Shown here: positions 1,292 through 32,432 of the stretch, piece after piece
Position numbering within the stretch: the first letter of the stretch is position 1
Layout of the letters: the number at the start of each line of letters is the position of its first letter
DNA from: K189A clade bacterium
Lineage (GTDB): Bacteria > Pseudomonadota > Gammaproteobacteria > Pseudomonadales > Azotimanducaceae
DNA length: 32,432 nucleotides
Assembly (NCBI GenBank): GCA_902565895.1
Contig: CACFGV010000023.1
Span: 1 to 32,432 of the forward strand
Reading direction: 5' to 3'
Translations under genes and position numbers: made by a program
Notes under the pieces: generated by a model
Told to the model about the DNA's origin: nothing
The model's database searches: none
The model's input: only the letters and a program-made list of their open reading frames with translations

Positions 1292-1340
1292 GGCCGCCCT
1301 CCTCTTTGCTAGCCCGAGTATGCCACAGTGGTCGCAGGCG

Positions 1341-13295: not shown

Positions 13296-15554
13296 ATGGC
13301 AGATGCAGTGGACTACAAACAGATTGGCAGTCGCCCGGTACGGCCCGATGGACTCGACAAGGTGACGGGTCGAGCGCAGTTTGGTGCCGATACGGTGTTG
13401 CCGAATATGATCCATGGCAAAGTGCTGCGCAGTGCTCATGCCCACGCCAAAATCAAGGGCATTGATGTCAGCGGTGCATTGGCGTTGCCGGGTGTTTTCG
13501 CGGCGATCAGCGGAGCGGACTTCCCTGGTGGCGGCATTGAAGGCGAGGTGGGCGGTGAAGGCGGTGGCACACTGAGCGATGTGGCTAAAAACGTTATGGC
13601 CAGAGATAAGGTGCTTTATCACGGACACACTGTGGCGGCGGTAGCGGCGGCAACGCCAATGATCGCTGAGGCGGCACTTGCTGCCATTAAGGTGGAGTAC
13701 GAACCGCTGTCACCGGTGCTGGATGTATTGCACGCTATGCAGTCAGATGCGCCCTTGGTAGATGAGAACAATTATACCAACCTGCCGGAAAAGCCTGAGA
13801 GTCCGAGCAATGTAGCGAATCTGGGTCGGTTGGAACGTGGCAACCTGGAAGAGGGTTTTGCGGCTGCTGATGTTGTGGTGGAGCGTGAGTTCGAGTGCCC
13901 GATGACGCATCAGGGTTATATTGAACCTCAAGCCTGTGTTGCCAGTATTGATGAAAACGGACGGGGTACGGTGTGGTGTTCCACCCAAGGGCATTTTGAG
14001 TTCCGTGCGGCTACCTCGAAGATTCTTGGCAAAGATCTCGCTGATTTGAAAATCGTTCCAATGGAAATTGGTGGCGGCTTTGGCGGTAAAACCGTGGTCT
14101 ATTTAGAGCCACTGGCGGTTATGCTTTCTGAAAAGTCGGGTCGCCCAGTAAAGATGGCCATGAGTCGGGAAGAAGTATTTCGCGCGACGGGACCCGCCTC
14201 GGCGTCAGTAGCTCGGGTAAAAGTGGGAGCCAAACGCGATGGCACCATTACGGCGGCCCAGGCCTGGGTCGCTTACGAAGCAGGTGCCTTCGCTGGCGCA
14301 CCTTATATGCCTGGCGCTATGGCGATTTTTGCCCCCTACGAGTTAGAAAATTTCCTTGTCGAAACCTTCGATGTGTTGGTGAATAAACCTAAAGTGGCTG
14401 CCTATCGCGCGCCCGGCGCGCCGCAGTCGATGCACGCCTTTGAATGCGCGTTAGATGAGATTGCGCAACTTATCGATATGGACCCCATCGATCTGCGTTT
14501 ACACAACGCGGCGGACGAAGGTACCCAAGCTAGCTATGGGCCGAAATTTCCGCCCATTGGTTTCAAAGCCTGTTTGCAAGCGGCCAAGGACCACCCAAAT
14601 TACCAGGCACCGGTGCCTGAAGGCGCAGGCCGTGGTGTGGCAGCAGGGTTCTGGTTCAACGTGGGTATGCAATCCAGTGCTGAGGTGCATATCAATGAAA
14701 ACGGCACCGTTATGGTCATTGAAGGCAGTCCTGACATTGGAGGCTCCCGCGCCTCAATGTGTCTGATGGCGGCAGAGACCCTGGGCGTGGAGTACGACAA
14801 AGTTCGTGCCCAGGTGGCGGATACCGAAAGCACCGGTTTCTGCAATGTTACCGGCGGCAGCCGAACAACCTTTGCCACTGGTATGGCGGTGACCCGGGCG
14901 TGTGAAGACGTAATCGCTGAATGTAAAAAGCGTGCAGCCATGACTTGGGGCCTTGACGAAGACCAAGTGGAATGGGAAGACGGGCAGGCGATACCTGGGC
15001 CTGGGGTTAACGCAGACGTGAAGGCATTGAGCCTTGCAGATTTAGCGGGCAAAGCAGCCAAGACTGGCGGACCAATTCAGGGCCGTGCATCTCTTAATGC
15101 CCAGGGTGCAGGTGCGAGTTTCTCGGTGAACTTTGGCGATCTGCGAGTCGATCAAGAAACCGGCAAAGTAGACGTGTTGTCCTATACCGCGGTGCAGGAT
15201 GCGGGCAAAGCGATTCATCCGTCTTACGTTGAGGGCCAGATGCAGGGCGGTGCCGCTCAGGGTTTAGGCTGGGCGCTGAATGAAGAATACATTTTCAGTG
15301 ACGACGGCGTGTTGCAGAACGCAGGCTTTCTAGACTATCGCATTCCAGTGTGTTCCGACCTACCGATGATTGACACCAGCATTGTTGAAGTGGCCAACCC
15401 AAGTCACCCTTACGGGGTACGCGGTGTTGGCGAAACACCCATTGTTGCACCTCTCGCGGTAGCAGCGAACGCGGTGTCTCGATCCCTTGACATGCGCATA
15501 TGTAAATTGCCGTTGTCGCCGCCGAACTTGTTAGAAGCTATTGATGGCGAATAG
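13296..15554 (+). CDS. Xanthine dehydrogenase-family molybdopterin-binding subunit (orphan)
   Basis: A 752-residue large subunit of the molybdenum hydroxylase family (CoxL/XdhB/aldehyde oxidase type). It begins with the usual GSRPVRPDGLDKVTGRAQF segment, then has the glycine-rich loop EIGGGFGGK, the AYRAPGAPQSMHAFE cofactor segment and a GVRGVGET end motif whose E713 is the predicted catalytic base. These enzymes insert oxygen from water next to a heteroatom or carbonyl. The [2Fe-2S] and FAD subunits that normally accompany it are not in the window, so its electron route is unknown. ATG 13296 is preferred over the GTG one codon earlier; GAGGAGTGAG precedes both. A MoaD-like gene follows after 22 bases. 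Confidence 0.9.
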   Translation: MADAVDYKQIGSRPVRPDGLDKVTGRAQFGADTVLPNMIHGKVLRSAHAHAKIKGIDVSGALALPGVFAAISGADFPGGGIEGEVGGEGGGTLSDVAKNVMARDKVLYHGHTVAAVAAATPMIAEAALAAIKVEYEPLSPVLDVLHAMQSDAPLVDENNYTNLPEKPESPSNVANLGRLERGNLEEGFAAADVVVEREFECPMTHQGYIEPQACVASIDENGRGTVWCSTQGHFEFRAATSKILGKDLADLKIVPMEIGGGFGGKTVVYLEPLAVMLSEKSGRPVKMAMSREEVFRATGPASASVARVKVGAKRDGTITAAQAWVAYEAGAFAGAPYMPGAMAIFAPYELENFLVETFDVLVNKPKVAAYRAPGAPQSMHAFECALDEIAQLIDMDPIDLRLHNAADEGTQASYGPKFPPIGFKACLQAAKDHPNYQAPVPEGAGRGVAAGFWFNVGMQSSAEVHINENGTVMVIEGSPDIGGSRASMCLMAAETLGVEYDKVRAQVADTESTGFCNVTGGSRTTFATGMAVTRACEDVIAECKKRAAMTWGLDEDQVEWEDGQAIPGPGVNADVKALSLADLAGKAAKTGGPIQGRASLNAQGAGASFSVNFGDLRVDQETGKVDVLSYTAVQDAGKAIHPSYVEGQMQGGAAQGLGWALNEEYIFSDDGVLQNAGFLDYRIPVCSDLPMIDTSIVEVANPSHPYGVRGVGETPIVAPLAVAANAVSRSLDMRICKLPLSPPNLLEAIDGE

Positions 15555-15576: not shown

Positions 15577-15819
15577 GTGGCGCAGATCACGTTGCCGGAT
15601 GAATGTGCCGCCATTACTGGCGGCCAATGTTCGTTAACCCTTAGCGCTGAAAACTATCGAGATCTGCGAGCGATGTTGGTACAGCAATGGCCAGATCTGG
15701 ATGTGTTGCTGGACCGCTACGCTGTGGCTATTGATGGTCAAATTTACCAAGACGCCTTTATGGAACCCTTGAACGAGGACAGCGAAGTATTTTTTATGCC
15801 GCGGATTGAGGGGGGCTAA
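15577..15819 (+). CDS. MoaD/ThiS-like sulfur carrier protein
   Basis: An 80-residue protein with a beta-grasp layout: a first strand AQITLPDE, a helix ENYRDLRAMLVQQWPDLDVLL, then YAVAIDGQIY and EVFFMPRIEGG. It ends in Gly-Gly, the terminus that is adenylated and thiocarboxylated in MoaD and ThiS proteins. It directly follows a molybdenum hydroxylase subunit with a GTG start at 15577, so it may supply sulfur for that enzyme's cofactor or for its maturation. A general molybdopterin synthase role cannot be excluded, but no MoaE is nearby. Its stop overlaps by 4 bases the stop of the convergent DUF2239 gene. Confidence 0.78.
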   Translation: MAQITLPDECAAITGGQCSLTLSAENYRDLRAMLVQQWPDLDVLLDRYAVAIDGQIYQDAFMEPLNEDSEVFFMPRIEGG

Positions 15820-16379
15820 ATAGCTGCCACAGCCAGCGCAATAGCGGTGTCTGCGATGTCTTTGGGCCATACTTGAGTGTGTTGTTTGAACGTTTCCAGG
15901 TCCCGGGCATACAAAGCCCGCAGGGCTTCTTCATAACCTTGCAGATCTCCGGCCATGGCTTGGCAGAAGCGATAAGCTTTTTGTTGCGCTTGATGTTGTG
16001 CAAATTGCCGTTGTTGTTCTGGGTCTTTGCGGGCTGCAGAAACCAGTTTGCGCAAAGTCACCGATGCGCCGCCGGGTTGTTGTGCCAACCATTCCCAGTG
16101 GCGCGGCAATAGCGTCACTTCGCGGCCAATTACCCCCAGTTTTGGCCGGCCGCGCCTACGATTTGGTTTGCTGTTGCCTTGTTGCGGGTAACTGTCGATG
16201 CGCCAAGCCACGTCCTCGGCGCTGCCGCTCAGGTCAACATCCACAACGCTGAATGTGCTCTCATCGAAAATCACTACGCCGGCCTCGTGCAAGTGGTGCA
16301 AGTGTTCATGGGCCGCAAGTGCGGCCTCACGCAAGGACCCGCGGGCAATACGCCGGGTCAAGTTAAAAGTGCTGTACAT
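15816..16379 (-). CDS. DUF2239 family protein
   Basis: A 187-residue protein matching DUF2239. It has an N-terminal domain with VVIFDESTFSVVDVDLSG, a basic linker (NRRRGRPKLGVIGREVTLL) and the very typical PRHWEWLAQQPGGASVTLRKLV. A helical C-terminus follows. The family has no known activity. The RRRGRPK stretch resembles an AT-hook-like basic patch and the later part may be helix-turn-helix-like, so DNA binding is a possibility but unproven. No clear ribosome site precedes ATG 16379. Instead a short inverted repeat (16388-16418) sits immediately upstream. The PHP-type gene upstream ends 47 bases before it on the same strand. Confidence 0.85.
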   Translation of the reverse strand: MYSTFNLTRRIARGSLREAALAAHEHLHHLHEAGVVIFDESTFSVVDVDLSGSAEDVAWRIDSYPQQGNSKPNRRRGRPKLGVIGREVTLLPRHWEWLAQQPGGASVTLRKLVSAARKDPEQQRQFAQHQAQQKAYRFCQAMAGDLQGYEEALRALYARDLETFKQHTQVWPKDIADTAIALAVAAI

Positions 16380-16426: not shown

Positions 16427-17641
16427 CTATTCAGCAACCTCTATTTCAATCTCTGCGTGCTTCCCAGGTGCCGTGAGTGTGTTCTCGACCACGAAGGGTA
16501 GGGTCAGTTTTTTACTTCTTTTACCTGGTTTTATTTGTAACTTTATCTGTCCGTGGGCAGGTACGGTGATGCGGTCGGCGTTATTCATAAACGTGTAATC
16601 GCCGGTGTAGCGCAAATTGAAGTCAGCGTCGGAAACATTGTTCAGGGTCACCTCGGCGATATAGGTTGTTGCCCTGTAGCTCAAAGGCGATGCGCTCAGG
16701 CTGGCGGCTAAGAGAGGCTGCAAATGCTGTTCGCGGCCAATCAGCAAATTGCGGAACCAAACCACCGTGCGACGCGCGAATAAGGCCTCTTTGATGGCGG
16801 CGGCTGTCTTCGCTTTGGCAAATACTAAGGTGACGGGTCGATGCCCGCCGTCGTGGGGTTTGTAGTCCCAGTCGATAAGATCGTGCACATCGGATACGCC
16901 AACTAAGGTGAGGTTGTAGTCCAATGCTAACTGGAAGGCCTCTTCGGAATAGGTGCTGCCGTTGGCAATTTCAATGCCGTGCAACACGCCGTTGCGAGCA
17001 TTGGCGCTATGGAATTTGTTCATGCGTGCAATGCCGTCTGGGGCTTGACGAGTCCAGTAGGGGTGGTTCCAGAAGATAAAGGCGTTTTGCGCGTGTGCGG
17101 CCTCAACCGCCTTTTGTGCCGGCCATTCTTTGGCGGCACTGTAGTAGGCTAGAACATCACTGGTGTCCGCTGGCGGTTTATCTACTTTGATGAGTTTGTT
17201 GGCGTCGTCAATGAACACCGCATTGATGTGACCTGCCGGTGCATCCCGTGTGATCTCGCTGCCGCGGATTACGATGAGGTCGCTGTTTTTGGCGGCGTCT
17301 GCGGCGATGTCATAGGCGCGATTACGGTCTGGATGCAGAATGTCTGCCCGGTGGGGTTGGTATTCAAGATGTTCAGTTATGGCCAGGGCGTCTAATTGGT
17401 CCCGTAGGGCTTCTTCAACCCGAATTTTTGGCCAGACATGACCATCTGAAAACACACTGTGGGTGTGTAGATCTACGGTCAGGGTCTGATAGTCCGCTGT
17501 ATCTGGGAATTCAATGGCGCGGACGTCATTAGATACTGTTGCTGCGCGGCCATGAGACTGGGCCACCGCAGAAATTAAAATGCCGCCCAGCAGCGTCACC
17601 GCCCGGATGCAATGGGAGAATTTGAAGTCTGAAAACAGCAT
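16427..17641 (-). CDS. Exported PHP-domain phosphodiesterase (Sb-PDE-like)
   Basis: A 404-residue protein with an N-terminal signal peptide (about residues 1-33, core VTLLGGILISAVAQSHG), so it is probably periplasmic. The PHP metal motifs are clear: DLHTH at 57-61, D66, TEH at 89-91, then GSEIT, NHPYW and VSDVHD. It resembles the Sb-PDE family known for hydrolysing organophosphate diesters, and a C-terminal beta-sandwich-like domain (about 305-404) follows the catalytic part. The natural substrate is unknown. It lies 49 bases downstream of the MFS gene on the same strand and may be co-transcribed. It is a third gene or fragment of PHP type in the window, together with the two DUF3604 loci. 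Confidence 0.88.
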   Translation of the reverse strand: MLFSDFKFSHCIRAVTLLGGILISAVAQSHGRAATVSNDVRAIEFPDTADYQTLTVDLHTHSVFSDGHVWPKIRVEEALRDQLDALAITEHLEYQPHRADILHPDRNRAYDIAADAAKNSDLIVIRGSEITRDAPAGHINAVFIDDANKLIKVDKPPADTSDVLAYYSAAKEWPAQKAVEAAHAQNAFIFWNHPYWTRQAPDGIARMNKFHSANARNGVLHGIEIANGSTYSEEAFQLALDYNLTLVGVSDVHDLIDWDYKPHDGGHRPVTLVFAKAKTAAAIKEALFARRTVVWFRNLLIGREQHLQPLLAASLSASPLSYRATTYIAEVTLNNVSDADFNLRYTGDYTFMNNADRITVPAHGQIKLQIKPGKRSKKLTLPFVVENTLTAPGKHAEIEIEVAE

Positions 17642-17690: not shown

Positions 17691-18920
17691 TTAGACGTTA
17701 TCGGACTTTACTCTGTCGCGAGTTCTTAGCACAAAAACGATTAACGGCAGGTACAACGCAAAGGTAAACCAATAGGGTAGATCGGGTTGAATCTGGTAAA
17801 AGAAGCCACCCAGCAGCGGCCCAATCGTGAACCCCAACGGCCCGCAGGAGCCCGCGACACCAGCAACAGCCCCTTGCTCCTCTGCATTAACGGCCATTGA
17901 TGCACCGGCCATAAAGGCCGGACCGGCAAGACCCATTCCAGCACCTTGCAACAGCATGGCGATGACCAGCATTGTCTGGGTATTCGCGATGGCTAAACAG
18001 GCAAAGGCCACTGCCAGAACCGGCATGGCAATACGCAGCCATTGGATGGGTCGCAGATTAATACGCTGCATCAGGCCTATTTGGCTGGCCAGTGACGCCG
18101 CCGCCGACAGGCCCATAGCCAGACCAAAGGTTTGGGCGGTCTCTACTGCGCTCAGTTGTAATACGTCCTGAAAACGAAAGGCCAGGGTCTGTTGCACCAG
18201 CGCCATGCCTATAAACATCATGGTGCCAACGATGATGTAGGGCAGAATGCGCCGATCAAAATAGCTTAACTTGGCACTGACTTGGTTGCGCTGGAGTTTT
18301 GGTTGTGGGCTATTGGGCAGTAGAAAAATTACTAACAGGGCGGTCGTAATAGCCAGCCCTGAGGCCACCCATAACGGGGTCAGTAGAGTGATGCCTGCCA
18401 GTAGCCCACCCAAAGCCGGTCCTAGGATACCGCCAAGATTGTTAGCTGCTCCGACGGCCCCCATACCCTTAGTGCGGGTCGCAAGGTCCGTTATGTCCGC
18501 CATATAAGCGCTGCTTGCTGGCATGATGGCGGACATCAGGCTGGCGTGGAGTACGCGGGTAAGCATTAGCAGTAAATAGGCGCTCAACGGCAGCAATGCA
18601 CCAATAAGCGCGGCATGAAAGACGCTGGCGAAAAGGAAGTTACCGCAGGCATAACCCAGCAAGCCGAAGATCATTAACGGTTTGCGGCCCCATCGATCAC
18701 TCAGTCGCCCCCAGCGTGGACTGGCCAGGAATACGGTCAGGGAAGAGGCTGCAATGATGGAACTGATTTGTAATTCACTGAGGCCCACCTCTCGGCCTAA
18801 CGGACCCAGAATGGCAAACAGCACGCTAAAACCGAAGCCTACGCCGACCAAAGCAACCAACAAGATGGCGCGGGCGAATCGATAGTTGCGTAGCGGCGGG
18901 GTTGATATCGCGTCGGTCAA
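17691..18920 (-). CDS. MFS transporter (DHA1/TetA-like drug exporter type)
   Basis: A membrane protein of about 409 residues with 11-12 hydrophobic helices. It carries the MFS loop motif GRLSDRWGRKPLM between helices 2 and 3 and a helix-5-like segment GAANNLGGILGPALGGLLAG, as in TetA-type proton-driven exporters. The start is uncertain. The frame is open to 19028, but the family resemblance begins near residues RNYRFARAILLVALVG, so TTG at 18920 is my choice despite a weak ribosome site. The longer start would run through a small gene on the other strand. It could export a toxic intermediate or drug; the cargo cannot be inferred. Confidence 0.85.
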   Translation of the reverse strand: MTDAISTPPLRNYRFARAILLVALVGVGFGFSVLFAILGPLGREVGLSELQISSIIAASSLTVFLASPRWGRLSDRWGRKPLMIFGLLGYACGNFLFASVFHAALIGALLPLSAYLLLMLTRVLHASLMSAIMPASSAYMADITDLATRTKGMGAVGAANNLGGILGPALGGLLAGITLLTPLWVASGLAITTALLVIFLLPNSPQPKLQRNQVSAKLSYFDRRILPYIIVGTMMFIGMALVQQTLAFRFQDVLQLSAVETAQTFGLAMGLSAAASLASQIGLMQRINLRPIQWLRIAMPVLAVAFACLAIANTQTMLVIAMLLQGAGMGLAGPAFMAGASMAVNAEEQGAVAGVAGSCGPLGFTIGPLLGGFFYQIQPDLPYWFTFALYLPLIVFVLRTRDRVKSDNV

Positions 18921-18948
18921 TGGTGTGCGCTCGGTGCAGGTGGTTAAA

Positions 18949-19296
18949 ATGCCAATCGAACATTGTAACGGAAACCACGCCTGCTTCGGCAGCCACAAGG
19001 AGAAAACCATTAGCTCGAAAGACCACAAGGTCTCGCGCCCAGAAGCTGGGCGTAGTCAGGCCGCACAAAGAGTGACGGTGCAACGCGGTCGCTGGCGGCG
19101 AATGGCGCGCACCATCTTGTTAGGCACAACCACTGCGCTCGCGGGCGTGGTGTGGGTGGCGCAACAATATGGGGTTGCGGTCGCCGACAGCCTGGCATTT
19201 CTTGGCAGCAGCGTGGTCTTTGTAGTCGCCCTAATAGGCGTCGGCTTGGTGGGCGCTTGTTTGTTGTGGTTGGTGCGTAAGCTGTTGGGGCGTTAG
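18949..19296 (+). CDS. Small two-helix membrane protein of unknown function
   Basis: A 115-residue product from ATG 18949, which has an AGGTGG site 5 bases upstream. An internal ATG at 19102 (MARTILLGTTTAL) would give only the 64-residue membrane part. The first 50 residues are hydrophilic and basic. They are followed by two hydrophobic stretches (LLGTTTALAGVVWVAQQYG and SSVVFVVALIGVGLVGACLL) and a basic C-terminal end (VRKLLGR). I recognise no family. The hydrophobic part looks genuine; the N-terminal part may not be translated. It lies convergent to lepB (6-base gap) and divergent from the MFS gene. Confidence 0.5.
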   Translation: MPIEHCNGNHACFGSHKEKTISSKDHKVSRPEAGRSQAAQRVTVQRGRWRRMARTILLGTTTALAGVVWVAQQYGVAVADSLAFLGSSVVFVVALIGVGLVGACLLWLVRKLLGR

Positions 19297-22636: not shown

Positions 22637-23317
22637 CAATAAGTACGGTAACACTGCATCTACGATTAACGGTTGTGCTGCGGCGGTCGGGTGAATGCCA
22701 TCGTTTTGCATAAACTCGGGCTGCAACGCCACTTCCTCCAGCAAGAAAGGAATCAGTTCCGTATTTGCGGTGGTCGCAACGTCTTTGAAGCTTGCACGAA
22801 ATGCCTCGGTGTAGCGTCGCCCATAATTAGGCGGAATTTGCATTTCTGCTAGTAAGGTTGAAGCGCCCTGGGCATGGGACAACTCAAGAATGCGCAGCAA
22901 ATTGTCCTTCATTTTTTGCACCGGGTAACCGCGCAGGCCATCATTACCCCCCAGCTCCACGATGACGATTTTTGGCGCGACTGAATCTAAGACGCCGGGT
23001 AACCTGGCCAGTCCGCCTCCAGTTGTTTCGCCAGAAATACTGGCGTTAACCACCCGCCAACCGGGATGGTTGGCCGTCAGATATTGGTCCAGTAAGTGCA
23101 CCCACCCCTGCTCGCGTTGAATACCATAGGCGGCGCTGATACTGTCGCCCAGCACAACAACCGTCCCAGAAGAAGCACTGGTCGACACGTTGCCCATGGC
23201 GGGTTGCGCCAGGGCAGACGTAAACAACAACGCAATTATCACAACCGCAGTAATAGGCTTCGGCAAACGAAGCCTGATTAGGGGCGAGAGGTTAAGAAAT
23301 GACGGTGAAGAAGCCAT
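22619..23317 (-). CDS. tesA: Arylesterase/acyl-CoA thioesterase I (SGNH hydrolase)
   Basis: A 232-residue SGNH hydrolase of the TesA type, which cleaves thioesters and esters in the periplasm. The nucleophile S59 is in LGDSIS. The oxyanion residues lie in SGETTGGG (96) and GGND (N125), and D206 and H209 are in DGIHP. A signal peptide ends near ALAQPAMG (about residue 41). The ATG at 23317 shares its central bases with the ATG of the divergent ybbA. A TTG at 23266 with AGG upstream would give a more usual, shorter signal peptide starting LPKPITAVV. The arrangement tesA divergent from ybbA-ybbP is the same as in E. coli. Confidence 0.93.
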   Translation of the reverse strand: MASSPSFLNLSPLIRLRLPKPITAVVIIALLFTSALAQPAMGNVSTSASSGTVVVLGDSISAAYGIQREQGWVHLLDQYLTANHPGWRVVNASISGETTGGGLARLPGVLDSVAPKIVIVELGGNDGLRGYPVQKMKDNLLRILELSHAQGASTLLAEMQIPPNYGRRYTEAFRASFKDVATTANTELIPFLLEEVALQPEFMQNDGIHPTAAAQPLIVDAVLPYLLPLLRQ

Positions 23318-23987
23318 GAGTCGAATCGTAGTCTCCGCTGCCGGTGTGACCAAAGTTGTGCCCACCGCAGCGGGTCAATTAGTGATCTTGGATGGCATTG
23401 ATCTGGAAATCAATGCAGGCGAGTCGGTGGCTATTGTGGGTGCGTCAGGTTCTGGTAAGACCACCTTGCTGGGCATTTTGGCTGGTTTAGATGCGGCGAC
23501 AGATGGTCTCGTAAGCCTGGTGGATGCGAACCTTTCTGAGCTGGACGAAGAGGCGCGCGCCTTGGTACGGGGCCAGCATATGGGCTTTGTATTTCAGTCC
23601 TTCCAGCTACTCGGCAGTTTAACTGCGCTAGAAAACGTGATGTTGCCGGTAGAGTTACGCGGTGATCGCATGGCAGAAGATCAAGCACGCCAACTGCTGA
23701 CGAAGGTCGGCTTGCAAGACAGAGTGGATCATTATCCACGCCAGTTATCAGGTGGTGAGCAACAACGGGTCGCAATTGCCAGAGCGTTTGCCTCAAACCC
23801 TGAAGTGTTATTTGCCGACGAACCCACTGGAAATTTAGATACCCAAACGGGCGAGGTGATCTGTGAATTGCTGTTTGAACTGAATCAAGAATTTGGCACC
23901 ACGCTGATCTTGGTGACCCATGACCACGGGTTAGCGCAGCGCTGCGACCGCACCATTGCCATTGCTGGGGGCAAGGTCGCGTCATGA
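23316..23987 (+). CDS. ybbA: ABC transporter ATP-binding protein YbbA
   Basis: A 223-residue ATPase of the LolD/MacB-like group. It has Walker A GASGSGKT at 42-49, Q94 in the Q-loop, the signature LSGGEQQ at 144-150, Walker B VLFADEP at 164-170 with the catalytic Glu, and the switch H202. It should power the membrane protein YbbP encoded next to it, with which its stop overlaps (ATGA). ATG 23316 overlaps the divergent tesA start in the sequence CATG. The open frame continues upstream to 23190, but only as the antisense of tesA. The biological substrate of YbbAP is not settled; links to lipid or lysophospholipid handling together with TesA have been suggested from the gene order. Confidence 0.93.
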   Translation: MSRIVVSAAGVTKVVPTAAGQLVILDGIDLEINAGESVAIVGASGSGKTTLLGILAGLDAATDGLVSLVDANLSELDEEARALVRGQHMGFVFQSFQLLGSLTALENVMLPVELRGDRMAEDQARQLLTKVGLQDRVDHYPRQLSGGEQQRVAIARAFASNPEVLFADEPTGNLDTQTGEVICELLFELNQEFGTTLILVTHDHGLAQRCDRTIAIAGGKVAS

Positions 23988-26464
23988 ATCTGGCCCTGGT
24001 TTCACGGATGGCCTGGCGTGATGTGCGCTCTGGCGAAATGGGTCTGCTGCTGGTAGCCCTGCTGGTGGCGGTAGGCACGGTCACCTCTATCAGTTTATTC
24101 GTCGACCGGCTTCAGGGTGCCCTGGTGCAAGAGTCCGCCAGCTTCCTGGCTGCAGATCGGCAGATTTCTAGCTCTAGAGAGATTCCCCCGAGCTTTTTTG
24201 CAAAAGCCCAAGAAAAGGGTCTGCAGACGGCTCAGGCACTGGTATTTCAGTCGATGATCTATGGCGGTGAATACAATCAGTTGGTTAGCGTAAAAGCCGT
24301 AGATGGTGGCTATCCGTTGCGTGGCGAGTTAATCGTCGCCGATCAGCCTTTTGGTGAAGGCTATGCCGTTAACAACATTCCTCAGCCAGGAGAAATCTGG
24401 CTTGATTCGCGCTTATTTCCTGCCCTTGGGGTAGGACTTGGTGATCTGGTAGAGGTTGGCATGGCCGAACTGCGAATAGGTGGCGTGTTGGTTGCAGAAC
24501 CTGACCGCGGTGGTTCGATGTTCGACCTTGGTCCGCGACTTCTCATGAATCTGCAAAACGTACCGGAAACAGAAGTGGTGCAGCCTGGCAGCAGGTTGTC
24601 GTATCGAATGCTGCTGGCGGGCCCAGAGGATGAGTTGCAACTGTTAAAAGAAGATTTGCCTCTGGAGCCCAACTACCGCTGGTTAGATATCCGTGGGAGC
24701 AACGCCAGCATCGGTAACGCTTTAGACCGCGCGGAGAGTTTTTTGTTGCTGGGTGGACTACTTGGAGTGTTGTTGGCGGGCGTAGCTGTTGGGCTCAGCG
24801 CGCACCGTTATGCCCAGCGCCATTTCGACCATGTTGGAGTGCTTAAAACCCTGGGTGCAACGCCAGGGCAAATTCTGCGTGGATTTATGGGTTTGTTGCT
24901 GCTGGTTGGTGCGGCAGCCATTGGGCTGGGTTTAGCAGCTGGTGGGCTATTGCACATAGCCATAGTTGAACTGTTGGCGCAATTTCTGCCAGTGTCATTG
25001 CCTGCGCCTGGGCTGAGACCCTTTACCCTAGGGGCGGTAACCGGCCTGATCTGTGCGCTGGCCTTCGCTATGCCAGCCTTTGTACACCTCAAGAGTGTTG
25101 AGCCCATGCGCGTGATACGTCGTGATTTGGGTGTGGCGCCGTTAAGTCGTTGGGCATCTTATGGTGCGGCGGCAGCGGGCAGCCTGGCGTTGCTGGTTTG
25201 GTATACCAAGAACTTTATGCTTACTTTTTGGGCGCTTATCGGCGCCGTGGTTGTGATTACGGTGTTTGGGTTTGTGGCCTATGCGCTTTTGCGCGGTGGC
25301 CGGGTGGCCGGTATGCAGGCTAAGAGTGGCTGGCGCCTCGCGCTGTCTGCGCTGCAGCGCAGGCGACAGGAAAGCACAGCGCAGATTTTGATTTTTGGTC
25401 TAGCCATCATGTTGTTACTGGTGCTGGTCTTGATTCGTACTGCATTGATCGAGGAATGGCGGGCGCAGGTGCCAGACGATTCTGCCAATCATTTCGTCAT
25501 GAATATTGGCCCGGAGGAGGTCGAAGGGGTTGGGGCGCTCATAGAGCAATCTGCGACCCAGGGTGAATTTTTATACCCTGTAGTACGTGGTCGTATTGTT
25601 GGTGTTAACGGCCTGGATGCGAGGGGCTGGCGCACACAGAATCCCCACGTACAAAGGCGTATTTCGTCTGAGCGCAATCTGACATGGATGGCTTCCCAGC
25701 CGTCCAATAATGTTGTGATAGAGGGTCAGTGGTGGGATCCAGACAGCACCGTGGTAGAGATTTCTTTGGAAGAAGAATACGCCGATGAAATGGGGCTCAG
25801 CCTGGGGGACAAGTTAGATTTCGACATTGGCGGACAGCAAGTCAGCGCGGTGGTGAGCAGTTTGCGAAGCTTGGAGTGGGAAAGTCTCAGTCCGAACTTC
25901 TACATTATTTTTTCGCCTCAGGCGCTCGCCGACTTTCCTGCAACATATATGACCAGTTTCTATCTTGAGCGACAGGACAAAACATTTCTTAATACGCTGT
26001 TAAGCTCCTACCCCACAATTACCGTGATCGAAATTGATGCGGTCATCGAGCAAGTGCAAACCATTGTTGATCAGGTCACTCAGGCGGTAGAACTGGTGCT
26101 GGTGTTGGTATTGTTCAGTGGATGCTTGGTGCTTATCGCGAGCATTCAATCGAGCCGTGACGCGCGCATGTCGGAACTGGCGTTGGTGCGCGCTCTGGGT
26201 GGTACGCGCCGCTTGATTGCAGGTTCGTTGACTGGAGAGTTTTTAATTCTCGGCGTCTTCGCTGGTTTGGTTGCGGTGCTGGGTGCCGAACTCACGGTGG
26301 CTGCGCTACAGACGCAAGTCTTTGAGTTGAGCGCACAGATCCATCCGTGGATTTGGTTGCTAGGGCCGTTAAGCGGTGCACTGATCATTACTGTGGTGGG
26401 CCTGATCGGCAGTCGTAGCTTGCTTGATTCTCCACCCATGCATGTGCTGAGGGGGTTGAACTGA
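23984..26464 (+). CDS. ybbP: FtsX-like ABC transporter permease YbbP
   Basis: An 826-residue inner-membrane protein with the YbbP layout. It has an N-terminal helix (about 17-37), a large periplasmic domain, a first FtsX block of three helices (around 255-370), two central helices and a second periplasmic domain. A second FtsX block (about 695-820) includes [22 protein letters not shown] and the ending [13 protein letters not shown]. The cytoplasmic turn [15 protein letters not shown] is typical of these permeases. It starts inside the ybbA stop and its own stop overlaps the ttcA start (TGATG), so ybbA-ybbP-ttcA look like one operon. Confidence 0.93.
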
Positions 26465-27204
26465 TGTCGGAGAGGGGGGCGGTTTCTTTGCCGAAGCGTG
26501 ATCCGCGCAAAGGCCAATACGAGAAAAATAAATGTCATAAAAAGTTGCGGCGTTTAGTTGGCGAGGCGCTGACTGATTTCAATATGCTCAGCAATGGCGA
26601 CAAGGTCATGGTGTGTCTGTCAGGAGGAAAGGACTCTTATACTTTGCTAGACATGATGCTCAGTTTTCAGCAGCACGCTCCCATTCAGTTTGACATTGTT
26701 GCGGTGAATCTGGATCAAAAGCAGCCGGGTTTTCCTGAACACGTGTTGCCGAAGTATCTGAGCGAGGTCGGGGTGCCCTTCGACATCATCGAGCAAGATA
26801 CGTATTCCATCGTTAAAGAGCTTACGCCAGAAGGTAAGACCACTTGCCCAGTATGTTCCCGGCTGCGGCGGGGAATCCTGTATAACCATGCAGGACGCAA
26901 CGCCAATCGCCGCAGTAGATTTAATCAAGCTCAGCCAAAGAAACGGTGCCGTACAACAACAAGTGCTACGTCTTGGAGACTATCCTACGGGCCAAGCCAG
27001 CAGTTGCATCACCTGGACAGATCGCGACTACAACAAGGGCGATGTGGCGTTATGGTACGTGCGGGTACTGGAACAACCCAGCCAGCGCTGGGATCAGAAA
27101 AATCAGGTGGTAGAGCGCGCTTGGTCGTCGCCGATCTGGTCATTAACTGCTCCAATGCCAGATCGGTCAGGACCCGAGCGCTAAATCATTGGAGCAAAAG
27201 ATAG
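26464..27204 (+). pseudogene. ttcA: Truncated ttcA (tRNA 2-thiocytidine synthetase) fused to foreign sequence
   Basis: Residues 1-143 are a clear TtcA: a basic lead, [17 protein letters not shown] with the PP-loop SGGKDS at 53-58, [15 protein letters not shown], and the first Cys pair C128/C131 in [18 protein letters not shown]. After position 26892 the family sequence stops abruptly. The GHHRDDI segment, the second catalytic Cys and the C-terminal half, about 150 or more residues, are gone. The frame continues 103 codons to 27204, but that tail ([12 protein letters not shown] and so on) is only the wrong-frame translation of a DUF3604 fragment. Without the second half it should not thiolate C32 of tRNA. 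Either a genomic rearrangement or an assembly join could explain this. Confidence 0.88.
26893..27184 (+). pseudogene. C-terminal fragment of a DUF3604 protein
   Basis: In the frame beginning at an ATG at 26888 the sequence reads [33 protein letters not shown], then [16 protein letters not shown] and [10 protein letters not shown] before TAA at 27182. The YVRVLE-P--RW and ERAWSSPIW blocks are the hallmark ending of DUF3604 proteins, which are normally over 600 residues long and exported. Only the last 95 or so residues are here, with no N-terminal domain and no start signal of their own. The left boundary coincides with the point where ttcA is cut. The fragment cannot be the missing end of the gene at 1-1291 in a simple way, since that gene runs off the left edge on the other strand. 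Confidence 0.8.
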
Positions 27205-27211
27205 ACAGGGT

Positions 27212-28003
27212 TTATTTTCCCATCAAAGACTGAGCAAATTGCCGCAACTCAGTCACCACCGTCTCTGTAGCCTCGCGAATCACAAAGTGCCCAGCCTCAG
27301 GGACATCCACTCGGCGCACATCGCTTAGCCGTCCTTGCAAATCATCAGCATTAGCTGGGGTACCGAACTGGTCTTGTTGGCCGTATATCAACAACGTTGG
27401 CACAGCACTTCGGCCCCAATAACTGCTACTGGGCGCTATCTTTGCGTCCCATCGAGCGCTGGGGCGTTTAGGTGGCCACAGCAAGTCAATCAGTTCGGCA
27501 TAAGCGCTTGGCTGACGGCCTGCAAAACCTGGTGCGCAATAAGCCTGGACAAGGGCTTGAGCCCATGCGGTTTTGTCCCCCGCTCGTGCGCTGTTGCGCA
27601 CGTGCGCCAGCACCTTATCCGGCAGGGTGCTGGGAAACTGTCCTCCGGTACCGCAAATCACCAAACCCTCGCATAAGTGTGGATAGTCCCTGGCAAACAC
27701 CTGGGCCACTCGTCCACCCCAGGCATGACCCACCGCAATTACCCGGGACAGTTCTAACTGTGCCAGCACGGCAGCAGCATCTGCCGCTGTATCTAATAAC
27801 GAAAACGCCCCCATGGCGTGGCTTGCCCCGGCGTTGCGTTGATCAAAACGCACTACTTTCTCTGTAGTAGCCAGCGCAACCGCAACTGGGTCCCAAAACG
27901 CTAAGGGCAGTGTGGCGCCATTGAACAGCAACCACGCGATATCGCCATCACCATCGACACGGTAGTTAATTTGTACGTCCTGTTGCCGCCTTAAAATAGC
28001 CAC
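27212..28003 (-). CDS. Alpha/beta fold hydrolase with Ala at the nucleophile position
   Basis: A 263-residue alpha/beta hydrolase. Recognisable parts are the oxyanion region WLLFNGATLPLAFWDP, strand VVRFDQRNAGAS, the nucleophile elbow VGHAWGGRVAQ, the acid region LLIYGQQDQFGTP and the His motif EAGHFVIREA. The elbow normally reads GHSxGG, but here residue 94 is Ala (codon GCC, one base from TCC Ser). The acid and base are still present. It may be inactive as a hydrolase, use another mechanism, or be a binding protein. GTG 28003 is preceded by GGGAAAG. It is divergent from dgoK (105-base gap) and convergent with the DUF3604 fragment. A sugar lactonase role beside dgoK is only a guess. Confidence 0.83.
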   Translation of the reverse strand: MAILRRQQDVQINYRVDGDGDIAWLLFNGATLPLAFWDPVAVALATTEKVVRFDQRNAGASHAMGAFSLLDTAADAAAVLAQLELSRVIAVGHAWGGRVAQVFARDYPHLCEGLVICGTGGQFPSTLPDKVLAHVRNSARAGDKTAWAQALVQAYCAPGFAGRQPSAYAELIDLLWPPKRPSARWDAKIAPSSSYWGRSAVPTLLIYGQQDQFGTPANADDLQGRLSDVRRVDVPEAGHFVIREATETVVTELRQFAQSLMGK

Positions 28004-28108
28004 TCAACTTTCCCATGTTTGATGCCAGGCCACACAATACCCTAGCAGCCTGGGGTTCGGCCCACGTAAACTGTTCACGTTTCTTTATCAGCCAAAGATC
28101 TCGCGCCT

Positions 28109-29035
28109 ATGAGTTCCAAACCGAATGCCGTGAACATTGTAGTGGATTGGGGCACCAGCAATTTTCGCGCCTACCTGGTGGCGGAAAACGGCAACTGTCT
28201 ACGCCGCGTTGAAACGGCTGAAGGCTTAAACAATGTGCAGCAACCATTTAGCGAGGTGTTGCTAAAACATATCGATCCTTGGTTACAACAACACGGTGCG
28301 CTGGTGACTGTGCTATGCGGCATGGTGGGCAGTCCTGGCGGCTGGCATTTGGTACCGCATCTACCCGCCCCCGCATCGCTAATGCAACTGGCCGAGCATT
28401 GTCACCGACTGACCGAGTTCACCCATTGCCCAGCATGGATCGTTCCAGGCGTCTCTGGCGCGGGCCATGCGGGCAACTATGACGTAATGCGCGGTGAAGA
28501 GGTGCAGTTTTTTGGCGCACAACAACTGCTGCCCCGCTCTGAACATAAGGCTCCACAGTCACTGTGTTTCCCAGGCACCCACAACAAATGGATCGACGCC
28601 TCATCCAGCACACTGAATAATTTTTCCACCACCATGAGCGGTGAGCTATTTGGGCTACTCAGCCAACAATCCATATTGGCCAGTTCCGTAGACGATGACG
28701 CACTGTGGAATGACGACGCCTTTACTCAGGGTCTAGACCACGCCAAACAACCAGGCGGCCTATTGCATCATTTATTCGGTGTGCGCGCGCTAAACCTCAA
28801 TGGCGAGCACAGCCAAGAGATCGGGCTGAGTTATTTGTCGGGATTGATCATTGGCCATGAACTGCAACATTTAGATGCGGATGCGGGTTGTTCCATTGCC
28901 ATTGTCGGCGCCTCAGAATTGGCTCAAAGATATCAGTTTGCCCTCGCCCACTTCGGCTATGATGCTTTTTGTATCGACGGCGAAGCCGCCACTATTCTGG
29001 GCGCCTTGGCTATCGCTGAACAGTTACCGGCTTAG
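28109..29035 (+). CDS. dgoK: 2-dehydro-3-deoxygalactonokinase
   Basis: A 308-residue kinase that phosphorylates 2-keto-3-deoxy-D-galactonate with ATP in the De Ley-Doudoroff galactonate pathway. The phosphate-binding start IVVDWGTSNFRAYLV, the stretch VLCGMVGSPGGWHLVPHLPAP, the FPGTHNKWI segment and a C-terminal IVGASELAQRYQFAL fit the DgoK family in order and length. The ATG at 28109 has only a weak AAAGATC upstream. dgoA follows 9 bases after the stop, forming a two-gene unit. No galactonate dehydratase, regulator or dedicated transporter is present in the window. Confidence 0.92.
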   Translation: MSSKPNAVNIVVDWGTSNFRAYLVAENGNCLRRVETAEGLNNVQQPFSEVLLKHIDPWLQQHGALVTVLCGMVGSPGGWHLVPHLPAPASLMQLAEHCHRLTEFTHCPAWIVPGVSGAGHAGNYDVMRGEEVQFFGAQQLLPRSEHKAPQSLCFPGTHNKWIDASSSTLNNFSTTMSGELFGLLSQQSILASSVDDDALWNDDAFTQGLDHAKQPGGLLHHLFGVRALNLNGEHSQEIGLSYLSGLIIGHELQHLDADAGCSIAIVGASELAQRYQFALAHFGYDAFCIDGEAATILGALAIAEQLPA

Positions 29036-29044
29036 GACTATTTG

Positions 29045-29680
29045 GTGCGCGACCTGCTGATTTCTCACCTCAACAACATGCCGCTTATTGGCATTCTGCG
29101 TGGGGTCACGCCTGACGAAGCCGTGGACACAGTCGGCGCTCTTTATGCTGCGGGTTTTCGTATGGTTGAAGTGCCTTTGAACTCGCCGCAGCCACTGCAC
29201 AGCATCGAGAAAATCACCACCACGTATGCTGATCAAATGCTAATCGGCGCGGGTACGGTGCTGACCACCCAACAAGTCGCAGACGTCCGCAGTGCTGGCG
29301 GACAGCTCATCGTATCCCCCAACACCAACCCAGACGTTATTCAAGCCAGTGTCGAGCAGAACCTGGTCAGTGTTCCAGGTGTCGCGACACCGAGCGAGGC
29401 CTTTTCCGCGATTGCAGCAGGAGCTCATGGCATTAAAGCGTTTCCGGCAGAAATGATCACCCCGGCGGTGATCAAGAGTTGGAAGTCAGTGCTACCCAAA
29501 GACTTCCCAGTGCTTGCAGTGGGCGGTATTGATACAGCTAACATCCCAGCGTATTGGCAGGCTGGCGCTAACGGCTTTGGTCTGGGAGGTTCTTTGTACA
29601 AGGCGGGCAAGTCTGTCGACGCCGTGTCAGCCGACGCCCAGCAGTTTGTTACAGCAATGCGGAACTTAATGCCCGCCTAG
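29045..29680 (+). CDS. dgoA: 2-dehydro-3-deoxy-6-phosphogalactonate aldolase
   Basis: A 211-residue class I aldolase of the KDPG/KDPGal family. It splits 2-keto-3-deoxy-6-phosphogalactonate into pyruvate and glyceraldehyde 3-phosphate. Seen are PLIGILRGVTPDEAV with the catalytic Glu region, EVPLNSPQPL, LIGAGTVLT, and the Schiff-base Lys in HGIKAFPAEMITP. A glycine-rich phosphate site (AVGGIDTANIPAYW, NGFGLGGSLY) follows. The NSP and FPAE motifs match the galactonate version (DgoA) better than Eda. GTG 29045 is 7 bases after AGGA; TTG one codon earlier is possible. Its end overlaps the convergent membrane-protein gene by 4 bases. Confidence 0.92.
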   Translation: MRDLLISHLNNMPLIGILRGVTPDEAVDTVGALYAAGFRMVEVPLNSPQPLHSIEKITTTYADQMLIGAGTVLTTQQVADVRSAGGQLIVSPNTNPDVIQASVEQNLVSVPGVATPSEAFSAIAAGAHGIKAFPAEMITPAVIKSWKSVLPKDFPVLAVGGIDTANIPAYWQAGANGFGLGGSLYKAGKSVDAVSADAQQFVTAMRNLMPA

Positions 29681-30315
29681 TCGACTGTTCTTTGGGCCAG
29701 CGCTTCGCGCCAGCTCAGCCCCAAGGCGATCAGAGTTAAAATCAGCGCCAGGACCAATCGCGGATCACCCAGCTGGAACCAAGGATCCAACGGAAACGCA
29801 ATGGTTTTGTGCATCGCCGCTACTTTGAAGTCGTGGGACCCAGAAAATGCTGGATTGGTCGTAATTTCCATCATGTCGCGACGACTGCGATAGCGCATCA
29901 GTGCGCTCCGAGTCCATTGGTGCATTTCTGGCGCATTCATCAAGTCCAACGCAGAGGCTGCCGCGTCGCCTGCAAAAACCGGATGGCTGGCACGAGCGAA
30001 CAGCGCGGGATACATGTATTGCATGTATTTACCCAATACATCATCGCTGCTTTCGCCGGGTTCCACGCCTGGCACTTGCAGCGGCGTTGCATACATATCT
30101 ATGACATTGATCATGGCGAAGTCATCGCCAGTGTCGGACCGTAAAAACTGCTCTAGTACACGTTTCTGCTCTGGTTCGATACCGCGCTGCTCAAAAAACG
30201 CCATATACTTGTCAATTTCTTGCTCGGTAAGGGGGCCACCAAACGACGTGTACCAGCTAAAAAATGCTATGTACAGAACTGCAGCGGTCAGCCAGATCCA
30301 ACGCGTACGTGTCAT
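29677..30315 (-). CDS. Membrane-anchored protein of unknown function
   Basis: A 212-residue protein with one hydrophobic helix at each end: WIWLTAAVLYIAFFSWY (about 6-22) and LVLALILTLIALGLSW (about 187-202). The central 160 residues are hydrophilic and mostly helical, rich in Met and aromatic residues (KYMQYMYPALFARASHPVF), and would face the periplasm if both ends cross the membrane. I do not recognise a family. A GGAGGG site precedes ATG 30315. It stands between the dgo pair and the hot-dog-fold gene. The 75-base gap to the latter holds a 10-base palindrome but no clear promoter. Confidence 0.75.
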   Translation of the reverse strand: MTRTRWIWLTAAVLYIAFFSWYTSFGGPLTEQEIDKYMAFFEQRGIEPEQKRVLEQFLRSDTGDDFAMINVIDMYATPLQVPGVEPGESSDDVLGKYMQYMYPALFARASHPVFAGDAAASALDLMNAPEMHQWTRSALMRYRSRRDMMEITTNPAFSGSHDFKVAAMHKTIAFPLDPWFQLGDPRLVLALILTLIALGLSWREALAQRTVD

Positions 30316-30390
30316 AAACCCTCCTATTTGGACTCAACTTAATGGAGGACATTAATCAGCGCAAGGCTCCCCCCGCCTGCGCAGGGGCAG

Positions 30391-31242
30391 TTAGCTTGCG
30401 TATTCCGGCGACGATGCTTTCATACAACGCGACTGCATCAGCAGCGTTGCAACCTTGGCACCTTGCGGATCAAAAGCTTGGGTTTCGTACCAAACGTATT
30501 CTGTTTGCGGACTTTGACCCACACACAACACCTTACTGGTCAGGTGGTAATCGTGGTTCATCAACAACGGGCCGCTGTCAAAGCCAATCTCCATGGCACC
30601 AAACAAACCCACCATTTCACCAAGGTAAGGACGCATGCCTTGCATCGGATAAGCCCATAAAAATTCCAGTACTGTGGCAGGCGCAGCCACAGGATCACCC
30701 CAGGGCGAGGCGTCGCGGTACCAATCTAATGGGTCACTGATTAAGTTCTGATCAAAACGCTCGAACTGTCGAGTTGGTGCGGTATGCACATCGTATTCTC
30801 CCAGCGACAGACCTTCGTGTAGACGGTGCAAAATACGCAGCTCGGACGGATCACATGGGCGGAAATCTCGGTTACGTAATTCTGTATCGACGTGTTCCCC
30901 AACAGATGCAGTGCCAGTGGCCACCAACATGCCGTCCTCGCGCTCCATCCATACTTTAATCGAGTCATTACCTGGCGTGCGTTGCTCAGCAAACACCTGG
31001 ACTTGTTCTTTATCAACGGTTGCGTTCTTAAAATTCAGGGACAAATTTCCACGCTCAAACCATTCGTTGCCGAAAATCTGCAACAACACCGGCGGAAATT
31101 GGTTCATGTGAATATCGCCAGCTACGGTGCCGCCCCGAAAGCCGAGCTTCTCAGCCGTCGCATCATCGTGAATGCTGCCTGCGCCCTCGTCCGCGGACCA
31201 ATTTCTTGCGGCCCACAGTGGACCACTAACTACTTCTGTCAT
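30391..31242 (-). CDS. MaoC-like double hot-dog fold protein
   Basis: A 283-residue protein whose N-terminal part reads GSIHDDATAEKLGFRGGTVAGDIHMNQFPP. This is close to the MaoC/hydratase 2 pattern in which Asp and His bind the acyl-CoA. The length suits two hot-dog domains (about 1-120 and 150-280), the second lacking the motif. It probably hydrates or hydrolyses an enoyl- or acyl-CoA, though the exact activity is unclear. A GAGGAGGAAGGG site precedes the ATG. It lies 27 bases after the acyl-CoA dehydrogenase stop, so the two form an operon and likely take part in one beta-oxidation-like route. Confidence 0.72.
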   Translation of the reverse strand: MTEVVSGPLWAARNWSADEGAGSIHDDATAEKLGFRGGTVAGDIHMNQFPPVLLQIFGNEWFERGNLSLNFKNATVDKEQVQVFAEQRTPGNDSIKVWMEREDGMLVATGTASVGEHVDTELRNRDFRPCDPSELRILHRLHEGLSLGEYDVHTAPTRQFERFDQNLISDPLDWYRDASPWGDPVAAPATVLEFLWAYPMQGMRPYLGEMVGLFGAMEIGFDSGPLLMNHDYHLTSKVLCVGQSPQTEYVWYETQAFDPQGAKVATLLMQSRCMKASSPEYAS

Positions 31243-31269
31243 TCCCTTCCTCCTCGCTGTATTCGCAAC

Positions 31270-32432
31270 CTAATCAGGCAAGCCTAATACCCGTTTCGCA
31301 ATAATATTCAGCTGCACTTCGTTCGAGCCGCCGGCAATCGAAATTGATTTCGCCTCAAGCCAAAGTCTACACATGGCGATTTCTTCTTCGCTGAATGTAT
31401 CTCCCTGCCAACCCAAACCCTGGGTTCCTCGTACCTGCAACTGTGCTTCCAATTGCGCCTTCACGTAGTTGGCTTCCACGTACTTAAAGATCGATGTCGC
31501 CGCCCCAGGCGTGTCCGCTGCGGTTTCTTCAACCGCGCGCTGTTGGGTCAGCACGAAACTACGCCGCAACATTTCGATATCAATTAGATCAGAACGAAGT
31601 TTAGGGTCGCTGTGACTCGCCGCCTTGTCGTACTGCTGCACCATATCCGGCATCGGTACTGAGGGTTTAATACGTTGCATGGGGCCGGCTGTATCAGCGC
31701 TGGCAAGAGCCGCCAAACCAGAGCGTTCGTGTTGCAGCAAGCGTTTACCCACTGTCCAACCCTGATTCAGCTTGCCTACCAGATTGGCTTTGGGCACCCG
31801 CACGTTGTCAAAAAATGTTTGGCAAAAAGGCGAATGGCCGTTAATAAGTTCAATAGGTCGGGTACTCACGCCCTTGCTGTCCATAGAGAACAACACAAAA
31901 CTGATGCCTTCGTGCTTTGGCACCTCGCGGTCAGTTCGCACCAAACAGAACATCCAGTCCGCGTAGTTCGCCCCCGAAGTCCAGATCTTTGCGCCGTTTA
32001 AAATAAAGTGGTCGCCTTGGTCTTCAGCGTAGCTTTGCAGCCCAGCTAAATCTGATCCCGCACCAGGTTCACTATAACCCTGGCACCAGGCCACCTCGCC
32101 CCGAGCTATGGGCGGTAGGTGCTGTAATTTTTGCTCTTCGGTTCCGTATTCCAAAAGCGTTGGTCCAAGCATAGAAACTCCCATGCCCCCTAACGGTGGT
32201 CGGGCTTTTATGTTTTGCAACTCCTCGAGCAACACCACGAACTCATCCTTGCTTAAACCGGCACCACCGTATTCTTTTGGCCAAGTGGGTACGGTCCAAC
32301 CTTTTGCCGCCATGCGCTCTAGCCAAACGTAGGCCTCGGGATTTGTGCTGCGCCGTTTGTTGCCACCGCCAATGTCTTCGCCGGCCACCATACGCGTGCG
32401 CATGGTCGGTGGGCAGTTGGCCTCAAGCCACG
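31270..32432 (-). CDS. Acyl-CoA dehydrogenase (C-terminal part, cut by window edge)
   Basis: 386 residues are visible and the frame remains open to the right edge, reading WLEANCPPTMRTRM before the edge-proximal ATG at 32403; the true start is outside the window. The FAD-dependent acyl-CoA dehydrogenase blocks are present: GWTVPTWPKEYGGAGLS, the substrate and flavin segment WCQGYSEPGAGSDLAGL, and KIWTSGANYADWMFCLVRT. The C-terminal end is SIAGGSNEVQLNIIAKRVLGLP. Such enzymes introduce the alpha-beta double bond in acyl-CoA chains. Members of this subgroup often degrade sterols or unusual acids. It is followed by the hot-dog-fold gene, which could take the next step. Confidence 0.92.
   Translation of the reverse strand, partial: WLEANCPPTMRTRMVAGEDIGGGNKRRSTNPEAYVWLERMAAKGWTVPTWPKEYGGAGLSKDEFVVLLEELQNIKARPPLGGMGVSMLGPTLLEYGTEEQKLQHLPPIARGEVAWCQGYSEPGAGSDLAGLQSYAEDQGDHFILNGAKIWTSGANYADWMFCLVRTDREVPKHEGISFVLFSMDSKGVSTRPIELINGHSPFCQTFFDNVRVPKANLVGKLNQGWTVGKRLLQHERSGLAALASADTAGPMQRIKPSVPMPDMVQQYDKAASHSDPKLRSDLIDIEMLRRSFVLTQQRAVEETAADTPGAATSIFKYVEANYVKAQLEAQLQVRGTQGLGWQGDTFSEEEIAMCRLWLEAKSISIAGGSNEVQLNIIAKRVLGLPD

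Follow-up and report, generated by a model that had tools for sequence, protein, structure and literature searches.

A truncated ttcA gene fused to a DUF3604 tail very probably marks one end of an inverted join between neighbouring loci

In the contig analysed here the gene ttcA breaks off halfway and runs into the tail of a DUF3604 gene, and we are highly confident that this is a one-ended inverted join of two neighbouring loci. The join probably represents an inverted chimera that arose during amplification or library making, a reading that we favour over a recent real inversion. An artefact of draft-making is more likely than a mutation, and the event would be ordinary in either case. The window, i.e. 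the whole stretch of DNA that was analysed, is an entire contig (C23, 32432 bp) of the draft genome G000, which comprises 2.02 Mb in 87 contigs, with an estimated completeness of 68.8% and an estimated contamination of 0.36%.

The open reading frame at 26464–27204 begins as TtcA. A profile search matched it to positions 9–142 of the 295 positions of NCBIfam PRK10696 (E 6.7e-65, under the curated cut-off), and this first half harbours both the PP-loop SGGKDS and a CxxC motif, which we take to be hallmarks of TtcA (tRNA 2-thiocytidine synthetase). The profile match stops near residue 143–146, and the second half of the enzyme is absent from the frame. The cut 5′ part of ttcA, which is full-length in relatives, therefore comprises 143 residues (26464–26892, plus strand). 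From 26888 to a stop codon at 27184, in the +1 frame relative to ttcA and likewise on the plus strand, the sequence encodes the C-terminal end of a DUF3604 protein, cut at its start (Pfam PF12228, positions 524–589 of 591, E 2.8e-8). Position 27204 is merely the stop of the run-on ttcA frame, the DUF3604 frame being already closed at 27184. The profile matches thus confirm what had been proposed in an earlier note on this DNA, namely 143 residues of TtcA, a cut at about 26892 and a DUF3604 C-terminus in another frame. Nowhere in the window does the full PF12228 profile occur in one frame; its tail lies at the join and its front at the left contig end.

When the join was compared by eye with relatives, the window matched ttcA up to CATGC in four of five relatives and DUF3604 from ATGCA in four of four. 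The hexamer CCATGC at 26886–26891 is compatible with the orthologues of both genes. About 4–7 nt would be common to both sides, a range read from five ttcA and four DUF3604 relatives instead of this genome's own intact genes, so that the exact length hangs on unseen bases. The absence of a tRNA or repeat at the join, also claimed previously, was borne out: the window contains no tRNA, and no inverted repeat touches the join among 25 of the 34 pairs listed. A Pfam search of 30 proteins of the window, two of which overlap at the join, detected no recombinase or integrase domain. A functional TtcA–DUF3604 fusion gene was considered and rejected, as there is no other fusion in the ttcA frames of the relatives or in 21 named loci; the notion that the join encodes a functional fusion is not supported.

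The DUF3604 front part (2–1357, minus strand; PF12228 positions 3–414 of 591) runs to the left contig end. Its upstream neighbour is a gene for a GPH-type sugar transporter (1341–2783, minus strand), likewise in the relatives G022, G018, G004 and G002. On contig C132 of G022, a single gene with an open frame of 594 amino acids matches the window's DUF3604 front at 14198–15529 (80% identity) and, with its end, the window's DUF3604 tail at 15641–15889 (75%). In G035, G018 and G004, too, both pieces correspond to consecutive parts of one gene. Since both match consecutive parts of one orthologue in relatives, the two pieces of the window are regarded as one gene. Front and tail are separated by 35 residues in two of these relatives (G022 and G035) and by 37 in the other two (G018 and G004). 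Judged from these orthologues, the front would be some 35–37 residues short of the tail, and the left contig end about 104–110 bp short of the cut.

A DUF3604 fragment on contig C48, which also starts at a contig edge, was tried as continuation of the left end and rejected, being a different gene without overlap. Elsewhere in the draft there is no second copy of the first 200 bases of the window, which are matched only weakly, over 35 nt, by this C48 gene. The stop codon of the tail is located 10–11 residues later than in four relatives, possibly a slight sign of real decay; the pN of the tail is 0.155 between the window and G022, i.e. within range when set against 0.149 between G022 and G035. 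DUF3604 genes are generally numerous: G000 has seven matches (contigs C21, C22, C23, C30 and C48) belonging to divergent branches, and several genes per genome, again from divergent branches, occur across the genus.

Gene order reveals the orientation of the two sides. Upstream of ttcA, two undisturbed neighbours at 23190–26464 (plus strand), presumably ybbA and ybbP, encode an ABC transporter ATPase and a protein with FtsX/MacB permease domains, and their order is kept in relatives. The right flank (26893–32432) comprises the DUF3604 tail, the alpha/beta hydrolase gene abh (27212–28003, minus strand), dgoK, dgoA, g29677, g30391 and an acyl-CoA dehydrogenase gene. On G022 C132, abh directly follows the DUF3604 gene and is itself followed by dgoK and dgoA, so that the neighbours are identical to those of the tail in the window. 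This contig reads g15816-...-DUF3604-abh-dgoK-dgoA, and C100 of the same genome reads ttcA-ybbP-ybbA-...-g17691. Because the window holds g17691 and g15816 on one contig, with g16427 between them, we infer that C100 and C132 are chromosomal neighbours; no sequence overlap was found between their ends. The undisturbed order, pieced together via these two contigs, would be ttcA 3′ – [ttcA 5′ ... DUF3604 front] – tail – abh – dgoK – dgoA. The window instead reads DUF3604 front ... ttcA 5′ / tail – abh. Compared with C132 and C100, the segment 1–26892 (about 26.9 kb) is thus turned round with respect to the right flank. A single contig of G018, and likewise one of G002, carries ttcA and abh 52–54 kb apart on one strand; the window has the two genes on opposite strands.

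The earlier note had envisaged an accessory region newly placed beside the ybb operon. This idea had to be abandoned, as the order from abh to the acyl-CoA dehydrogenase gene is kept in five relatives (G002, G004, G015, G018 and G033) and lies at the said distance from ttcA in G018 and G002. Of 40 genomes of the genus, only 8 yielded abh at E 1e-20, one of the 8 being that of the window. Among the genomes examined, this DUF3604 gene adjoins abh in G022 only; in G018, G004 and G002 it is on a separate contig. As side observations, the PHP/DUF5001 gene g16427 (16427–17641) sits in the window between a DUF2239 gene (15816–16379) and an MFS gene (17691–19028); in G002, G004, G015 and G018, where these two genes adjoin, the corresponding stretches yielded no match to g16427. 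In a more distant member of the genus (G008, C12, 114160–137353), some 21 kb separate a DUF3604 gene from ttcA. The shared genes from g13293 to ybbP lie in between, and the local orientation of the DUF3604 gene is opposite to that in G022.

GC skew is in line with the gene order. It amounts to +0.097 over 1–26892 and −0.080 over 26893–32432, with a cumulative maximum at 27210. In G018 and G002 the skew is positive throughout 75 kb, in each of fifteen 5-kb blocks, and the block from the acyl-CoA dehydrogenase gene to abh, read in the orientation of the window, has a skew of −0.122 to −0.128 in G018, G002, G033 and G004. We also scanned 61 stretches of the draft including the window (37 of 87 contigs, 1,165,700 bases), leaving out the central parts of most of the largest contigs as well as both C26–C29 contig ends; the scan is blind to flips with less than 4 kb per side. 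The 60 stretches on 36 other contigs contained four further sign flips (C10, C14, C17 and C30), all weaker than that of the window, each side of a flip reaching about 0.045 or more. The genes at these flips look complete by Pfam coverage where matched, one open reading frame on C30 being without a match. Because the four flips are weaker and involve no evidently cut gene, such joins do not visibly abound in the draft.

The gene that is cut is widely conserved. Counting the genome of the window, 53 of 58 genomes gave a match to ttcA, and the open frame spans at least 280 amino acids in 51 of the 52 matching relatives, the exception (G030) being a fragment at a contig edge; G006 has an additional ttcA fragment besides. 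The second half of TtcA is present in 21/21 named loci checked (20 from metagenome bins and one from Xanthomonas), a set that overlaps with the 52 matching relatives, several contigs being shared to go by their lengths. The ttcA piece of the window is without decay: compared with five relatives its pN is 0.042–0.067 and its pS 0.77–0.84, pN being 0.050–0.066 between G022 and four intact relatives and 0.006–0.026 among those four. With the piece undecayed and the skew unadjusted, the event must be very recent, or it never occurred in a cell.

The earlier note had further held that the missing half of either gene is not close by. This does not apply to DUF3604, the front of which is at 2–1357. 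For ttcA, a family search of the 68.8%-complete draft, some stretches of which are N, gave no 3′ half, returning the window itself and a weak match on C1. The C1 gene was rejected as a candidate since it is TilS. Downstream of ttcA, relatives carry a gene for a TonB receptor and ccm genes (named from reading the open reading frames). A 12-kb DNA query of this block gave no match in G000, a search run without positive control. The TonB receptor protein had no match in G000 and was matched in 3/3 relatives, and CcmB, likewise unmatched in G000, was above the cut-off in G018 and G015 and sub-threshold in G022. It seems, then, that the draft lacks the downstream block, which therefore cannot reveal the second junction. 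Overlapping contig ends, as an untrimmed assembly might have, were not seen: among 74 readable ends of 39 contigs (all-N ends removed), no 17-mer was common to contig ends. Contig C14 (50.8 kb) contains, at about 42–49 kb, a complete 5S-23S-16S rRNA operon and two tRNAs, beside a biotin/lipoate ligase-type gene and at a change in GC skew. Complete rRNA operons are uncommon in short-read metagenome bins, and this operon is a weak hint of a single-cell origin of the draft. One single-cell pipeline trims 100 bp off contig ends and keeps contigs >2000 bp (PMC5519541). With such trimming, the left end would originally have reached nearly to the cut, which is suggestive, not proof.

The favoured course of events can be outlined as follows. 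A chimeric molecule would have formed in vitro when a strand whose 3′ end lay in ttcA re-annealed on a 4–7 nt match in the DUF3604 gene, a known behaviour in phi29 amplification. The ttcA end of the segment of about 26.9 kb, and not its DUF3604 end, would thereby have come to adjoin the DUF3604 tail, and the assembler would have spent the tail on the chimeric join, so leaving the contig open at the DUF3604 front. The organism would then possess an intact ttcA and an intact DUF3604 gene, and the join would encode nothing functional. An assembler is not misled by a 4–7 nt overlap on its own, and because the overlap alone cannot account for the error, molecules bearing the join must have been sequenced. 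This origin is supported by the DUF3604 parts at both places, the contig end 104–110 bp off the cut, the undisturbed arrangement in G022, the strand and skew flipped at the join, the intact ttcA elsewhere, and the lack of decay and of any repeat, tRNA or recombinase. Counting against it are the ~27 kb between the joined segments, a draft not visibly full of such joins, the requirement that the join exist in sequenced molecules and the tail stop lying 10–11 residues late.

The main competitor, which we consider possible rather than probable, is that some 26.9 kb of the chromosome really did invert, very recently, in the sampled cell or population. Illegitimate recombination between short matching sequences in inverted orientation would have been the cause, and ttcA and the DUF3604 gene would both have been inactivated. 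Such an inversion would yield the gene order and skew observed, would explain breakpoints that are neighbours (27 kb) and not random, and agrees with the inference that the join was present in sequenced molecules. Both orientations may coexist, which would explain a contig end near the second breakpoint. On the other hand, an inversion should leave two junctions and a single one is seen, the contig ending 104–110 bp before the reciprocal one would appear, and neither repeat nor recombinase was found. Moreover, the undecayed ttcA piece and the unequilibrated skew demand a very recent event, which would have broken a gene with a full frame in 51/52 matching relatives and a second half in all 21 named loci. 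A live, reversible 27-kb inversion by which this species would switch TtcA as well as the DUF3604 protein on and off, the two orientations coexisting in the population, is highly improbable.

A contig composed of two different organisms or strains is likewise very unlikely, if marginally less so than this switch. A draft of 68.8% completeness in 87 contigs would leave room for it, but the tail completes the window's own DUF3604 front and the contamination estimate is only 0.36%. Furthermore, G000 has one abh copy at E 1e-20 and no second close match to the tail (next best E 1.9e-4), and the ranges of identity to relatives overlap on both sides of the join. The interspecies version was rejected. 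The earlier note had left the choice between a deletion or inversion breakpoint and a chimeric assembly, which is broadly correct, and had raised recombination between DUF3604 paralogues. Gene order and GC skew favour the inversion type, and a simple deletion is unsuitable because it leaves the reversed orientation unexplained. Recombination of paralogues might have been suggested by the DUF3604 pieces at both segment ends and by the other DUF3604 genes of the genome. Yet the pieces do not overlap, match consecutive parts of one orthologue and show no mutual similarity by blastn of the window against itself; together, paralogue recombination and deletion are the least credible readings.

A word of caution is in order for drafts of uncultured bacteria: a fused open reading frame may mark one side of an inverted join, which is betrayed by the open end of the contig concerned together with the sign of the GC skew. 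Annotating the species as 'ttcA lost' or as carrying a 'TtcA-DUF3604 fusion' would probably be wrong. If the inversion were real, a conserved enzyme of tRNA thiolation would recently have been lost, which would be of modest interest.

Among known systems, phase-variable invertible DNA consists of a segment that flips, with inverted repeats at both ends and a recombinase nearby. The window shares the opposite orientation of a segment. On the other side, no inverted repeat is seen at the join among 25 of the 34 pairs listed, the second end lying beyond the contig, and Pfam shows no recombinase among 30 proteins of this contig; the segment, moreover, measures 27 kb and has its breaks inside genes. 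Intra-replichore chromosomal inversions occur in bacteria, and the gene order and GC skew of the window fit them, whereas its single junction, the lack of a repeat at the join and the undecayed ttcA piece do not. The comparison with phi29 chimeras applies only if the DNA of the draft was amplified. In a phi29 single-cell study, 406 of 475 chimeras were inverted and >70% of junctions had 2–21 nt complementarity (PMC1855051), figures that speak for an in-vitro chimera. Counting against it, the inverted chimeras usually joined segments <10 kb apart (337/406), in contrast to about 26.9 kb here; only 69/406 joined segments >10 kb apart, and these did not cluster by distance and had complementarity in only 34.8% (PMC1855051). 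A single-cell workflow reportedly produced 1.5 misassemblies per 100 kb when benchmarked on three cultures; a further point against, single-cell genomes are described there as less prone to mixed-lineage chimerism than metagenome bins (PMC11247762). As in the inverted chimeras of phi29 multiple displacement amplification (PMC1855051), the window unites two segments of one genome, the second segment being inverted; the few bases that the two would share, 4–7 nt, are read from relatives.
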